Origin: Actinomycetota bacterium
Lineage (GTDB): Bacteria; Actinomycetota; Thermoleophilia; Solirubrobacterales; 70-9
Direction: 5' to 3'
Assembly: GCA_018268695.1 (NCBI GenBank)
Contig: JAFDWD010001118.1
Location: forward strand, 1 to 5,720
Length of the DNA stretch: 5,720 bases
The translations under genes were made by a program, and so were the position numbers. Shown one piece after another: positions 1,044-5,720 of the stretch. Within the stretch, counting starts at the first letter, position 1; every line of letters starts with the position of its first letter. The notes under the pieces were generated by a model that was given only the letters and a program-made list of their open reading frames with translations, did not search any database and was not told the DNA's origin.

Positions 1044-2144
1044 GTGCGTCGTCTGACCATGGCAGCGCTCGTCTGTGGAGCCGTCTTCCTCGCATCGGCA
1101 GCCCTCGCGGGCGGTGCCGGGACGAAGCTGCCTGGCGGGCCGCGCCTCGCGGTGGTGGTCTCCAACTTCCACGGGCCGAGCGCGACCGAAGTCCTCACCG
1201 TCGGACCTGGCGGCGAGGACCCGCGGCGGCTCGCGCAGGGCACGTTCCCCGGGCCGATGTCCTTCTTCGAACACCCGAACTGGAGCCCCGACGGCAAGCT
1301 CCTCGCCTTCAACAGCCAGGGCGAAGAAACCCCCGCGGTCGCCCTGCTCGGTGCCGATGGGTCGAACCTGCACCTGCTCCGGTCCTCCGAACACCCGGGC
1401 GGCCCCGACAACTCGACCCTGCTGGAACCGCTCTTCGACCCGAAGACCGGCGAGGTCTTGGTCGGCATCGTCCACACGCCGCATGGCGAAGGGCTCTTCG
1501 GCGACGCCCGCCCGACCGGCAAGGCCGCCCAGTTCCGCGGCGAGTTCTGGTCGCTCCCCGTCCGCGGCGGCGGCAAGCCGCGGCGCCTCAGCAGCCGCTA
1601 CCTGGTCCGCTCCGGGATCTTCTATCCGTCCTCGATCGCCGCCGACGGGACGATCGCCGCGACCGACCTGAACCAGAAGGGCTTCACCGTCGCGGTCCTC
1701 GATCCCCGCGGCGGCCCGATCCGCACCGTGGTGACGGCTAGGCAGCAGAGGGAAGGCAGCCTCGAGCCGGCTATCTCCCCGGACGGATCGCGGATCGTCT
1801 ACAAGGTTGACCTTCAGAAGGAAGTTCGCGAGCGCCGGACCCTGATCGGTAGTGAGCTGATGATCGTGTCCCGCGAGGGCGGCAAGCCGAGGCGGCTCGC
1901 CTGGGTCAAGGGCGGAGCGGGCTGGCCGACCTGGGACCCGTCGGGCTCCCGGATCGCCTTTACGGCGATGGAAGACGCGGGCGGCGAAGACGGGGCCTTC
2001 GCCCAGCTCGGGAACGCGCTGATGGAGATCAATCCCGACGGCACCTGCCTGACGAAGGTCTATTCGGCCGGGCCCCAGGCTGCCGTCGAGGGCGCGGCCT
2101 GGCAGCCGGGCGCCGAACGCGGCGTCGGGCCGATCAACTGCTGA
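1044..2144 (+). CDS. Exported TolB-like/PD40 beta-propeller protein
   Basis: Predicted 366-residue exported protein. The GTG start is the first available after the menF stop; an ATG at 1059 (residue 6) is an equally plausible start and would still leave a signal peptide. Neither has a clear ribosome binding site. Residues 1-24 form a signal peptide: RR near the start, a hydrophobic core, then ALAGGA as a likely cleavage region. No lipobox is seen (Cys11 follows Val). The rest shows TolB/WD40-like (PD40) blades: NWSPDGKLLAF (79-89), SIAADGTIAATD (197-208), AISPDGSRIVY (243-253) and TWDPSGSRIAF (296-306). Each is followed by a strand such as LMIVSREGGKPRRL or LMEINPDG. The chain ends in a Cys (366), with another at 335, so a disulfide is possible outside the cytoplasm. 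True TolB acts with Pal in the Gram-negative envelope; this protein lacks an obvious TolB N-terminal domain, so only the fold is assigned. Substrate and role are unknown. It follows menF by 46 bases and could be cotranscribed with it. Confidence 0.8.
   Translation: MRRLTMAALVCGAVFLASAALAGGAGTKLPGGPRLAVVVSNFHGPSATEVLTVGPGGEDPRRLAQGTFPGPMSFFEHPNWSPDGKLLAFNSQGEETPAVALLGADGSNLHLLRSSEHPGGPDNSTLLEPLFDPKTGEVLVGIVHTPHGEGLFGDARPTGKAAQFRGEFWSLPVRGGGKPRRLSSRYLVRSGIFYPSSIAADGTIAATDLNQKGFTVAVLDPRGGPIRTVVTARQQREGSLEPAISPDGSRIVYKVDLQKEVRERRTLIGSELMIVSREGGKPRRLAWVKGGAGWPTWDPSGSRIAFTAMEDAGGEDGAFAQLGNALMEINPDGTCLTKVYSAGPQAAVEGAAWQPGAERGVGPINC
2134..2144. other. Tail-to-tail 11-base overlap of two convergent genes
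   Basis: The propeller gene stops at TGA 2142-2144 on +, and menD stops at TGA 2136-2134 on the minus strand. Each therefore encodes its last residues in the other's 3' end. No spacer is left for an intergenic terminator, so the two transcripts must run into each other or end inside the opposite coding region. Confidence 0.85.
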
Positions 2145-3948
2145 GGCCGGCCAGGACTCGCTCGGTGACGCGGTGGTGGGCGGCGACGTTGGTGTGGCGG
2201 TCGGTACGGACCTCGATCAGGCCGGTGCCGGCGGCGAGGGCGGCCGGGAGGTCGGCGAGGGATTCGAGGCGGCGGTAGGGGAGGTCGAAGAGGGCGGCGG
2301 CGCGTTCGACCGAGACGGCGCGGGGGGTGCCGAAGAGGGCCTCGAACTCGTCTGTCTCCAGGGCGGTCTGCTGGGGAAGGAAGTGGAAGATGCCGCCGCC
2401 GCCGTTGTCGATGACGAGGATGCGGACCGGGGTGGTGACGTCGCGCAGGGCGGCGAGGGCGCCGATGTCGTGGAGAAAGCCGAGCTCGCCGGTGACGATC
2501 GTGGTCGGACGGCCGCTGGCTTGGGCGGCGCCGATGCCGGAGGAGACGAGACCGTCGATGCCGTTGGCGCCGCGGTTGCAGAGGAAGTGGACATCGGCCG
2601 CGCCCGGGGCCAGGAACTGCTCCTGGTCGCGGATCGGCATCGAGGAGGCGGTGAAGACGAGGTCGCCGTCGGCATGGGCGCGGCCGAGCGCGAGGTGCAG
2701 GGCGGGCTCGGTCATCTCCGTCCCGACCGAGTCCTCGATCGTCTTCAACGCCGCCGTCTCGGCGTCGAGCCACGCTCGCGGCGCCGGCGGCTGCTCGCCG
2801 GTCAGACCTTCGAGGCGTGCGGCCCAGCCGCTCGCGCACTCGGTCGGATCCGCCCTCAGGATCGCCGCCGCGCGCCCCGTCGGCTCGTTCCAGCCGCCGG
2901 TCGGGTCGACGACGATCTGGTCGGCCCCGCTCGCGGCCAGCCACTGGCGCAGGGGCTTGGACGTCGGCAGCTCGCCGAAGCGCAGCACCAGCTCCGGCAC
3001 GACGCCGCGCGCCCAGTGCTCGTCGCGGAGCAGCGTGTCGTAGGTAGTGACGACGTAGGAGCGGTCGTGGGGACCGAGGCGCATCTGCGAGGTGGGCTCG
3101 GCGAGGATCGGGAAGCCGGAGGCGCGCGCCAGGTGGGCAAGGGGCTCGCGCAGCTCGGGGTCGGTCTGGCGGCCAGCGATGATAACTCCCGCGATCGCGT
3201 CGCCGATGTGGCCCGCGACCTCGTCGAGGACGAAGCTGGTCGGCTCGAGGTCGACGCGCGTCACCGCCGTGAGCGGGCGTCCGCCTTCGCGGCCGTGGAG
3301 CGCCAGCGGGTCGGTCGCCGTCACCGCGCCCTCGACCGGGATCGGTGCCAGCGGCTCGCGCCAGGGGAAGTTGAGGTGGACCGGGCCGGGGCGGATCTCC
3401 CCACGCGCCCGCGCCAGCGCCCGCGCCGCCACCGAGCGCAGGTGGAGGAGGCCCGAGTCGTCGGCGTCGTGCGTCCCGACTTCGCAGAACCAGCGCACGG
3501 TCTCGCCGAAGGTCTTGATCTGGTCGATCACCTGGCCGGCGCCGATGCCGCGCAGCTCCGGCGGGCGGTCGGCGCTGAGGACGATCAGCGGTAGCCCCGA
3601 CTCGTCGGCCTCGGCGATCGCCGGGTGGTAGTTGGCCAGCGCCGTCCCCGAGGTGCAGAGGAGCGCCACCGGCTCGCCGCTCGCCTGCGCCGCACCGAGC
3701 GCGAAGAACCCGGCCGAGCGCTCGTCGAGGATCACCGTGACCTCGATCCCCGGCTCCCGCCAGAGCGCCACCGCGAGCGGCGTCGAGCGCGAGCCCGGAG
3801 AAATGATCGCCCGCCTGAGCCCGCCCCGCGCGAGCTCCTCGGCAAAGGCCGATGCGAGAGCGGTGTTGGCGTTGGTCGGGTCCACGACAAAGGTGCCGGC
3901 TGAAGCATTTTGGTCGTAGGAGGACCAAAAGGCTTCAGCGGGGGTCAT
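2134..3948 (-). CDS. menD: SEPHCHC synthase (MenD), thiamine-diphosphate enzyme
   Basis: Catalyses the ThDP- and Mg-dependent addition of decarboxylated 2-oxoglutarate to isochorismate, the committed menaquinone step. The 604-residue length from ATG 3948 is near the family norm. Motifs: ISPGSRSTPLAVAL (49-62); DERSAGFFALG (75-85), holding the Glu that activates ThDP; LLCTSGTALANYHPA (96-110); SADRPPELRG (125-134); VIDQIKTFGE (140-149); GPVHLNFPWREPL (188-200); SSMPIRDQEQF (435-445); and NRGANGIDG (458-466). The Mg/ThDP motif reads TGELGFLHD (486-494) then VIDNGGGGIFHFLPQ (512-526); the usual GD is GE here. ATG 3948 overlaps the menC stop as ATGA, pointing to translational coupling; no Shine-Dalgarno is seen. 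Residues 1-20 precede the usual start of homology (about NANTALASAF, 27-36) and contain a strong palindrome. An in-frame GTG at 3885 is the alternative start and would leave a 59-base gap after menC. The frame also stays open upstream to about 4128, but that part overlaps menC and is spurious. Confidence 0.95.
   Translation of the reverse strand: MTPAEAFWSSYDQNASAGTFVVDPTNANTALASAFAEELARGGLRRAIISPGSRSTPLAVALWREPGIEVTVILDERSAGFFALGAAQASGEPVALLCTSGTALANYHPAIAEADESGLPLIVLSADRPPELRGIGAGQVIDQIKTFGETVRWFCEVGTHDADDSGLLHLRSVAARALARARGEIRPGPVHLNFPWREPLAPIPVEGAVTATDPLALHGREGGRPLTAVTRVDLEPTSFVLDEVAGHIGDAIAGVIIAGRQTDPELREPLAHLARASGFPILAEPTSQMRLGPHDRSYVVTTYDTLLRDEHWARGVVPELVLRFGELPTSKPLRQWLAASGADQIVVDPTGGWNEPTGRAAAILRADPTECASGWAARLEGLTGEQPPAPRAWLDAETAALKTIEDSVGTEMTEPALHLALGRAHADGDLVFTASSMPIRDQEQFLAPGAADVHFLCNRGANGIDGLVSSGIGAAQASGRPTTIVTGELGFLHDIGALAALRDVTTPVRILVIDNGGGGIFHFLPQQTALETDEFEALFGTPRAVSVERAAALFDLPYRRLESLADLPAALAAGTGLIEVRTDRHTNVAAHHRVTERVLAGLSS
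3899..3939. repeat. Near-perfect inverted repeat / hairpin in the 5' end of menD
   Basis: The left arm TGAAGCATTTTGGTC (3901-3915) and right arm GACCAAAAGGCTTCA (3923-3937) pair at 14 of 15 positions, with one A/G mismatch (3907 with 3931). Two further pairs (3900-3938 and 3899-3939) extend the stem to 17 positions around a 7-base loop (3916-3922). By hand count the 37-base core is about 46% GC, in DNA that is otherwise mostly G and C. No T-run follows on either strand, so it does not look like an ordinary intrinsic terminator. On the + strand the loop region reads AGGAGG (3918-3923), but no start codon follows at a usable distance. In the menD mRNA the same bases read CCUCCU, like the anti-Shine-Dalgarno end of 16S rRNA. 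It is read in frame as MenD residues 4-17 if ATG 3948 is used. It could be a dispersed palindromic element, an operator or an RNA switch; the sequence alone does not decide. Confidence 0.8.
3945..3948 (-). other. menC stop / menD start overlap (ATGA)
   Basis: The menC TGA (3947-3945) shares bases with the menD ATG (3948-3946). The sequence just upstream, reading toward menD, has no purine-rich ribosome binding site. Reinitiation by ribosomes finishing menC is the simplest way to start menD. This holds only if ATG 3948, and not GTG 3885, is the true start. Confidence 0.65.
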
Positions 3949-4958
3949 AAGCGGTGGTGTCGGAGCGAATCCTCGTCGATCACGATGCCGAGGCCCGGTC
4001 CTGGGGACTCGTGCAGGAGGTCGCCCTCCAGGGGACACTCCTCGGCGGCGATCGTCTCGGCGAAGAGGCGACGGGTCGCGAGGCCATGGGCGAGGCGCTC
4101 CTCGGCGGGCGTCCGGGCATCGACCCACTCCGCCAGCCGCCGCCCGATCGCGATCCCGACCGGGCCGTCGAGAGCGCTCGCCACGTAGGTGCGCATGATC
4201 GCGGCGATCTCCTCGCCCGCCTCGATCCCGCCGACCTTCGACAGCTTCACCCCGGTGATCCCGAAGGCGCTCGCCGCGACCGACTCCCGCGCGTCGGCGG
4301 CGGTGACGATGCTCTCGTCGCCGGCCAGCGGGATCCGCGTCCGCCAGGCCAGGTCCGCGGCCTCGGCGATCGTCTCGACCGGCTGCTCGACCAGCTCGAT
4401 CCCCAGCGGCTCGATCGCCGCGAGGATCCGGCTCGCCTCGTCCGGCGACCAGGCCGCGTTGGCGTCGAGCCGGATCTTCGCCCGCGGGCCGAGCGCCGCC
4501 CGCACCGCCTCGACCTGCGCGATGTCGTCGCCGGCGCCGACCTTCAGCTTGAAGGTCCCGAACCCGGACCGCGCCCAGCGGGCCGCCTCGGCGGCGACCT
4601 CGGCCGGCGGCCCGCTGACCAGGGTCGCGTTGCAGCGGACGGGGGCATGCTCGGCCTTCGTCCCTTGCCGCTTCTCCCGCAGGTCGAGGAGCGCGGTCGA
4701 CAGCGCGCAGCGCGCGGGCCGCGAGAGGCCCTCGGGCGCGGGCGCGAACGGATCGATCGACTCCAGTTCCCCCACCACCTTCGCGATCGAGACACCCCCG
4801 CGCAGGCTCAACGGCACCGCTTCGCCGAGCCCCTCGACGCCGTCCTCGTCCCGGATCCGCAGCAGCACCATCTCCCGCCGCGTCAGGCGCCCGCGCGCCG
4901 TCACGTACGGCTCTTTGAACGGAAGCGCGTAGGGGATGACCTCGACCGCCGCGCGCAC
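3945..4958 (-). CDS. menC: o-Succinylbenzoate synthase (MenC), enolase superfamily
   Basis: Dehydrates SHCHC to o-succinylbenzoate, the step after MenD and MenH; cytosolic and Mg-dependent. With GTG 4958 the protein has 337 residues, normal for actinobacterial MenC. The N-terminal capping domain (about 1-105) includes the early motif VEGLGEAVPL (41-50). The barrel carries the muconate-lactonizing subgroup residues: FKLKVG with Lys137 and Lys139, Asp165 in RLDANAAW, Glu191 in ELVEQPV, Asp214 in LAGDESI and Lys238 in GVKLSKVGGI. These match the two catalytic lysines and three metal ligands known in OSBS. SALDGPVG (261-268) is a typical late-barrel loop. GTG 4958 was chosen because homology-like sequence begins right there and it lies 2 bases after the menA stop; the frame is open to 5129 but that region is menA. 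The family also includes dipeptide epimerases and N-acylamino acid racemases, so the specific call rests on its place between menA and menD. Confidence 0.92.
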   Translation of the reverse strand: MRAAVEVIPYALPFKEPYVTARGRLTRREMVLLRIRDEDGVEGLGEAVPLSLRGGVSIAKVVGELESIDPFAPAPEGLSRPARCALSTALLDLREKRQGTKAEHAPVRCNATLVSGPPAEVAAEAARWARSGFGTFKLKVGAGDDIAQVEAVRAALGPRAKIRLDANAAWSPDEASRILAAIEPLGIELVEQPVETIAEAADLAWRTRIPLAGDESIVTAADARESVAASAFGITGVKLSKVGGIEAGEEIAAIMRTYVASALDGPVGIAIGRRLAEWVDARTPAEERLAHGLATRRLFAETIAAEECPLEGDLLHESPGPGLGIVIDEDSLRHHRL

Positions 4959-4960
4959 GG

Positions 4961-5720
4961 CTAGACCGAGAGCAGCAGGCCGATCGTGACCAGCAGGCTG
5001 TAGACCGCCAGCAGGCCGCCGGTCGCGGCCAGGCATTTGTTCAGCGCCGGGCCGTCGGTGCGCGTTTCCAGGACCCGGATCGGTTTGATCGCCAGCGGGA
5101 TCGCCAGCAGCCCGATCAGCGGCCACCATTGGCAGTCCCCGGCCCAGATCGTGAAGGGCAGGAGGACGAACGCCCCCGCGACGAGCACCTTGTACATGTT
5201 GATCGCGTTGGCCCGGCCCATCCGGACCGCGGAGGTGTTCTTGCCCGCCCGCCGGTCGGTCTCCAGGTCGCGCACGTTGTTGACGACCAGGATCGCGGTG
5301 GCGAGGAAGCCGACCGCGATCGAGAGCCCGAGGGGCAGCGCCGCGAGTTCCTCGGTCTGCACGTAGAAGGACCCGTTCACTGCGACGAGGCCGAAGAAGA
5401 GGAAGACGAAGACCTCACCCAGCCCGGCGTAGCCGTAGGGGCGGGGGCCGCCGGTGTAGAGGACGCCCGCGGCGATCGAGGCGACGCCGACGACGAGGAT
5501 GATCCAGCCCGCGACTACGGCCAGGTAGATGCCGCAGGCGACGGCGACGCCGAAGGCCACCCAGGTCGCGGTGAGGACGCGGCGGGGGGTGACGAGGCCC
5601 GCCGAGGTGACCCGCACCGGCCCGAGCCGGTCGGCGGTGTCGGCCCCGCGGCGCGCGTCGGAGTAGTCATTTGCGAGGTTGGGCCCGATCTGGATGAAGA
5701 TCGAACCGATCAACGCGGCG
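4961..5720 (-). CDS. menA: 1,4-Dihydroxy-2-naphthoate polyprenyltransferase (MenA), N-terminus outside window
   Basis: Integral membrane UbiA-family enzyme that joins a polyprenyl diphosphate to 1,4-dihydroxy-2-naphthoate, giving demethylmenaquinol. The frame runs off the right edge without a stop. The TTG at 5713 is internal, because MenA normally has about 40-50 residues with a first helix before this point. Numbering from that TTG, the first Asp-rich prenyl-diphosphate/Mg motif is NLANDYSDARRGAD (12-25), followed by RLGPVRVTSAGL, a typical MenA stretch. YTGGPRPYGYAGLGEVFVF (86-104) is a MenA hallmark. The second Asp-rich motif is NNVRDLETDRRAGK (145-158), with Asp149 and Asp153. Hydrophobic segments lie at about 46-65, 66-86, 98-113, 125-145, 175-190, 195-210 and 228-248. 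The stop is TAG at 4963-4961, followed 2 bases later by the menC GTG, so menA is upstream in the same transcript. Its promoter is not in the window. Confidence 0.95.
   Translation of the reverse strand, partial: AALIGSIFIQIGPNLANDYSDARRGADTADRLGPVRVTSAGLVTPRRVLTATWVAFGVAVACGIYLAVVAGWIILVVGVASIAAGVLYTGGPRPYGYAGLGEVFVFLFFGLVAVNGSFYVQTEELAALPLGLSIAVGFLATAILVVNNVRDLETDRRAGKNTSAVRMGRANAINMYKVLVAGAFVLLPFTIWAGDCQWWPLIGLLAIPLAIKPIRVLETRTDGPALNKCLAATGGLLAVYSLLVTIGLLLSV

Follow-up and report, generated by a model that had tools for sequence, protein, structure and literature searches.

The 5,720-nucleotide stretch that we analysed (hereafter the window; contig JAFDWD010001118.1 of an Actinomycetota bacterium) carries, between what appear to be menC and menD, a palindrome that is probably a member of a family of near-perfect palindromes, c. 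45 nt long, spreading as whole units within one actinobacterial order. A REP/RPE-like palindrome family in this lineage is real, and the best reading of the window element is that of a non-autonomous, hairpin-forming dispersed repeat that would act like the Rickettsia palindromic elements (RPE).

A first-pass annotation of the window had described a 17-bp stem with one mismatch and a 7-base loop, very unlikely to arise by chance and AT-richer than its surroundings, and our measurements agree on each count. Between 3899 and 3939, 16 of 17 pairs form (Table 1), and outward extension lengthens the arms to 20 nt. The hairpin scan scored the palindrome at 14, against a maximum of 13 over 200 dinucleotide shuffles of the window, and 19 of the 39 bases of its core (3900–3938) are G or C, versus 73% for the window overall. 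Read in the menD sense, a 121-nt stretch folds into the palindrome (z = −3.3, equalled by none of 200 shuffles), while the full-length menC–menD spacer RNA has a fold energy of −28.2 kcal/mol. A repeat search at its default seed of 9 misses the palindrome because exact seeds within it are 8 nt, and an Rfam search of the window returned no family up to E = 1.

Table 1. Features of the men region and of the palindromic element in the window.
Feature	Position	Strand	Basis or remark
menD, 583 aa, probable GTG start at 3885–3883	2134..3885	−	TIGR00173, 426 bits, above cut-off (scored on the longer 604-aa reading)
Probable menC–menD intergenic spacer holding the element, 59 nt	3886..3944	−	menD start from relatives and listed protein
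Entire palindromic element including G/C stem extensions, 47 nt	3896..3942	.	20-nt arms at 90% complementarity
Left arm	3899..3915	+	sequence, arm pairing
Loop, 7 nt	3916..3922	+	CTCCTAC in menD sense; majority CCATGAC among 18 aligned copies
Right arm	3923..3939	+	pairs with left arm except 3907/3931
menC-like o-succinylbenzoate synthase	3945..4961	−	models below cut-off (best 124.3 vs 288 bits), and men-cluster position

Profile search places the palindrome in a men cluster (menD, a menC-like gene, menA and menF), the two flanking genes serving vitamin K2 synthesis, and close MenD proteins come from organisms whose names begin Solirubro (several of the closest named ones) or Actinobacteri. 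The first-pass annotation had embedded the palindrome in the 5′ coding region of menD, a placement that we abandon: it most likely belongs to the menC–menD spacer, because relatives start MenD downstream of it. Near relatives have a (V/M)DPTN-type MenD start at residue 22 of the window ORF; 15 of 17 fetched MenD proteins, including the 583-residue protein listed for the window contig, start downstream of the palindrome; and among the best 30 MenD matches made into loci, 27 start no earlier than query residue 15, and only G041 (residue 4, its spacer holding the window's family), G023 and G009 depart from this. That the palindrome is ordinary menD coding sequence, its codons happening to form a palindrome, agrees with a frame that is open from an ATG (3948–3946) overlapping the menC TGA stop (3945–3947), reads PAEAFWSSYDQNASA across the palindrome and is open in G041 as well. 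It agrees also with P0028, which like P0019, and unlike the other 15 proteins, has an upstream start; the N-terminus of P0028 (MTLAEAFWSHNDQKASAGTLMDPTNAN, from the protein sequence only) is the same palindrome read in frame. Given the downstream starts in the relatives, we nevertheless regard this reading as very improbable: the same sequence recurs between genes, and in G038, whose MenD shows 90% identity, both arms are shorter by a single base, so that the left half reads differently and the frame meets the menC TGA (judged by eye). The palindrome can thus mislead the annotation of MenD N-termini in this lineage, P0028 being an example if the downstream start is right.

Searches for further copies bore out the earlier suggestion of a dispersed repeat family, the repeating unit being the palindrome itself, c. 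45–47 nt. The exact inner-stem pattern occurred in five stretches of the genome collection, only one of which, L003 from an Actinomycetota MAG, has the full stem, around another loop; two further copies lie in the same genome. The remaining four (L001, L002, L004 and L005) share just the inner pattern, have different flanks and were discounted as chance matches, and viral contigs gave no match to this pattern. A 28-base pattern with up to three mismatches found copies in four of 232 genomes of the order, its reversed-pattern controls none, and a covariance model raised this to 22 of 232; the model recognizes the window element in either orientation (65.5 and 55 bits), the window being itself one of its 18 sequences. 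When 399 genomes sampled across the class were searched, 16 gave matches at E ≤ 1e-4, every one of them already known from the order. Both genome counts (22/232 and 16/399) are lower bounds, since these searches of order and class used strict filters and scored few candidates per genome (26 and 15, respectively). Deeper searches gave 8 matches in G001, 1 in G033, 92 in G038, 27 in G039, 31 in G041, 18 in G043 and 15 in G057, with both strands of each copy counted and the G038 figure including a sister family, beginning CTGTTCC, to which many of its matches belong.

An alignment of 18 copies (A1) shows conserved arms. Over 17 distinct copies, 7 of the 17 stem pairs have changed on both sides, amounting to 21 cells against a mean of 7.6 after shuffling, a value reached by none of 500 shuffles, which is not to be read as a probability, as the copies are related and kinship by itself may exceed what this control allows. 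In G038, a search with sister-family arms gave 80/81 matches against 0/1 for the control, and 66 of the 68 exact places listed form opposed pairs 22 nt apart. This arm-pairing figure rests on G038, because in G041, where most listed arms look single under the same pattern, the variant partner arm TATGCCGG (seen for C82) falls outside it.

More than one unrelated palindrome family occurs in each host genome, and the sampled copies are mostly intergenic. A de novo scan over 400 kb of G041 found 25 hairpins (score ≥ 13), 19 of them intergenic in a sequence whose intergenic share is 11% (p = 7e-14); five shuffles yielded 0 to 3 hairpins in the 340-kb part and none in the 60-kb part. G057 has six hairpins in 400 kb, with 0 to 2 per 200 kb after shuffling. 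Grouped by shared 8-mers, the 56 distinct hairpin sequences within 151 kb around copies in G038 fall into 11 clusters, six with at least two members, and the 31 from G041 (the 400 kb plus 14 copy loci) into 14, four with at least two members, the clustering being crude, the copy-selected loci differing from genome averages and some single-member clusters possibly reflecting chance. Tandem arrangement occurs as well: at L022:1449-1591 in G043 three palindromes with differing stems follow one another 49–50 nt apart. The palindrome of L100-L113 in G039 lies within a longer conserved repeat, its flanks conserved over c. 100 nt, while the G057 hairpin is bare.

Among 80 copies fetched, mostly from draft genomes of relatives of the window's species, 28 lie between co-directional genes, as does the window copy, 25 between convergent and 8 between divergent genes, 5 within predicted genes and 14 at contig edges, as judged from approximate gene calls made with our own codon-score method. 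The excess of convergent over divergent sites, together with the direct contact of some copies with stop codons (of convergent genes in G057), is what an intrinsic transcription terminator might show. In three cases the foot TGA of the palindrome is itself the neighbour's stop codon: a long ORF in L003 (808–810), whose motif suggests a glycosyltransferase, an Era-like GTPase in G057 (L119:2506-2508) and menC of G041 (L134). Yet a terminator is hardly credible here, given that the U-run lies within the 5′ arm and none follows either arm, and that the window copy sits within a co-directional pair and others within ORFs or between divergent genes supported by Pfam. Two such divergent sites are found in G057, between an O-antigen ligase and a PMT-type transferase and between a UvrD helicase and a queuosine salvage gene; because these neighbours are Pfam-supported, the element is not simply a 3′-end feature, and we ruled out a hairpin tied to gene ends.

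Across relatives, the menC–menD site is variably occupied. The clade tree has 16 rows; among these, the G001 sequence stops short of the spacer, and the G046 spacer is anomalous at 164 nt. Clear spacer palindromes, equalled by none of 200 shuffles, are present in the window, G035, G036, G042 and G047, and probable ones in G038 (5/200) and G039 (2/200). The spacers of G033, G048, G040, G043 and G041 hold no palindrome beyond shuffles, with imperfect or decayed stems visible by eye. Finally, G034 and G037 have short spacers without a palindrome (9 nt in G037, similar in G034), and the empty G034 is the sister of the filled G042 with support of 100/100. Two more copies of the G035 spacer palindrome occur in G035 and two in G041; the pattern based on the G039 spacer matches two additional copies in each of G033 and G041, with none further in G039. 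Different dispersed families thus occupy this one spot in different genomes.

These comparisons also bear on whether the palindrome is a selected cis-acting RNA hairpin in the menC–menD message, an mRNA stabilizer or attenuator kept by compensatory change. Stems that differ greatly between the five clear palindromes and the two likely ones fit such a role, and hairpin-like spacers in several neighbours could mean that the site needs one. Against it stand the five spacers that cannot be told from shuffles and the short ones in G037 and in G034, the latter so close to a filled relative; the same families also lie between divergent genes and within ORFs, and for G033 and G035, though not for G039, sister copies of the spacer hairpin turn up at other places in the same genome. 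We consider a selected RNA hairpin unlikely, if the least so of the alternatives weighed here, and prefer the dispersed repeat.

Copies inside genes point in the same direction. A G041 gene with GHMP kinase domains, which we take from its sequence to be ispE, holds an in-frame member of the window's own family, reading PAEAFWSPDNQNASA. Among 14 ispE loci, 13 are readable at the insert point (G049 is not), and six of these (G041, G038, G001, G043, G033 and G039; L238 for G041, L239 for G038, and L240-L243) are interrupted there, at one and the same position, by 16 to 22 extra residues in frame; G037, G042, G040, G046, G047 and G050 have an uninterrupted 33-residue form, and G048 has 39 residues without a palindrome. 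The inserts belong to different families. That of G041 is of the TGAAGC family (scan score 19), of which G038 holds a decayed version by eye; that of G039 is a perfect 23-pair palindrome beginning GTTCGCAG, whose family is also seen in the insert of G033 (score 13), probably, by eye, in that of G043, and elsewhere in G035, G038, G039 and G041; and that of G001 is, by eye, a third palindrome type. At a score of 8 or more the scan flags G041, G033 and G039, the imperfect inserts of G038, G001 and G043 having been judged by eye.

A second gene repeats the pattern. In the ileS linker between the YAN motif and LDRW (L218-L229), in-frame palindromes that none of 200 shuffles equalled occur in G038, G041, G042, G047 and G039, those of G038 and G041 being of one family whose inner stems differ yet remain complementary. 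In 14 further rows from 13 genomes no ileS palindrome stood out at this 0/200 level, the nearest being G043 (7/200); G001 was not covered and G040 gave no match. Outside genes, G043, G041 and G001 share an intergenic site at which the stems differ around a common CCATGAC, and an intergenic region with two palindromes in G038 has none in G041. Comparison of relatives, which the first-pass annotation had suggested for the menD region, shows that orthologous sites either hold a whole palindrome or lack it, and that palindromes are tolerated within coding sequence. It shows too that at menC–menD and in ispE different species hold different families at the same address. Of the earlier suggestion that the element keeps frame as RPE do, the part concerning its family stands, with the in-frame copy in ispE of G041, while the part concerning menD itself probably does not hold, that copy being likely in the spacer. 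Other copies lie in Pfam-supported ORFs for an FAD-linked oxidase (L197:8916-11804), an anthranilate synthase (L209:13204-15561) and an FMN oxidoreductase (L098:2129-4192). Three candidate gene insertions were set aside: L154 (G038), whose ORF has no Pfam match, L109 (G039), with a weak coding score, and L207, where a MutL-family ORF (Pfam PF13941) contains a hairpin that seems to have arisen by chance at the codon level.

That the family at a given site changes between species could reflect either the overwriting of one palindrome by another or repeated insertion into permissive spots. We raise, tentatively and as something that we doubt, the possibility that palindromes are swapped, such that fixed addresses (menC–menD, ispE, the ileS linker and at least one intergenic site) retain a palindrome in several species while its family changes, even in frame in essential genes. 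If true, hairpins already in place would have to be targeted or overwritten by some process, a form of hairpin homing or conversion not described in those parts of the literature examined here.

REP-type short palindromic repeats are tied to a RAYT transposase, and classical REPs or REPINs moved by such an enzyme (Y1, IS200/IS605-type) would account for several traits of our family. As portrayed in excerpts from two papers, REPs and REPINs are short intergenic palindromes with compensatory stem changes, tandem groups and copies in ORFs (PMC3733652; PMC3116915), all of which recur in this lineage; our elements are REP-like in these terms by their size and hairpin, their intergenic bias, their compensatory changes and their grouping in tandem (three copies, 49–50 nt apart). 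However, the Y1_Tnp domain was found in just one of 13 genomes (G049, where L150 and L151 hold the sole match) and was absent from G001, G038, G039, G041, G043 and G057, which are drafts; GTAG occurs at none of the 144 feet of 72 copies, and CGTC at 17 of 144, 10 of them in G039 and none in the window. Stems are longer as well, at 13 to 27 scored pairs versus the 5–13 bp (GTAG) and 8–9 bp (CGTC) of the excerpted account (PMC3733652). Because of the single Y1 genome, the missing GTAG and the sparse CGTC, our family is not a RAYT-type REP by the features given there, and we hold a classical REP origin to be highly unlikely. CGTC-tagged repeats, for which the same excerpts give no dedicated transposase, 8–9 bp stems and some copies within genes (PMC3733652), resemble ours in being short palindromes, some within genes, with no mobilizing enzyme known for either; they differ in their shorter stems and in the tag.

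The preferred comparison, that with RPE, is apt because a close relative has the window's family in frame within its ispE. RPE, in the portion of the source available, form several palindrome families per genome, insert as whole units of c. 150 nt and lie in frame in unrelated genes (PMC10969869). Our elements are likewise palindromic, with many dispersed copies in relatives of the window, and likewise make in-frame coding insertions where orthologues lack the unit (ispE, ileS). On the other hand, at c. 45 nt they have about a third of the RPE length given in that portion, and they are mostly intergenic where sampled, in high-GC Actinomycetota, the likeness being one of described features. They resemble MITEs, introduced in the same text as non-autonomous, mostly intergenic inverted-repeat elements (PMC10969869), in that they are mostly intergenic, have inverted repeats and would be non-autonomous. 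A search with one arm of one sister family in two genomes showed no partner insertion sequence, and filled and empty sites have diverged too far for a target-site duplication to be read; a difference from MITEs is that the G038 sister-family arms occur almost only as the close pairs noted above.

How the elements move can be sketched from these patterns. No transposase could be linked to the palindrome, and no copy was seen to have moved; it may be non-autonomous, with an unlinked enzyme copying it in the form of a folded single strand. Once inserted, it might keep its arms complementary through hairpin-templated correction or conversion from sister copies, and not through selection on the host gene. 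In the window the palindrome would add a hairpin to the menC–menD message, and any effect on it, such as protection of menC mRNA or looser coupling of menC to menD, would be a by-product. Literature searches returned no description of such repeats for this little-studied lineage, in which the spread of hairpin repeats and their accommodation by proteins can be approached comparatively. With several families, in-frame copies in ispE and ileS, and 12 of 13 genomes without the transposase in question, it contrasts with the tie between REP and RAYT. G038 also contains, at L030:1262-1426, near a palindrome, an array of CCCGTC-type repeats spaced 12 nt apart.
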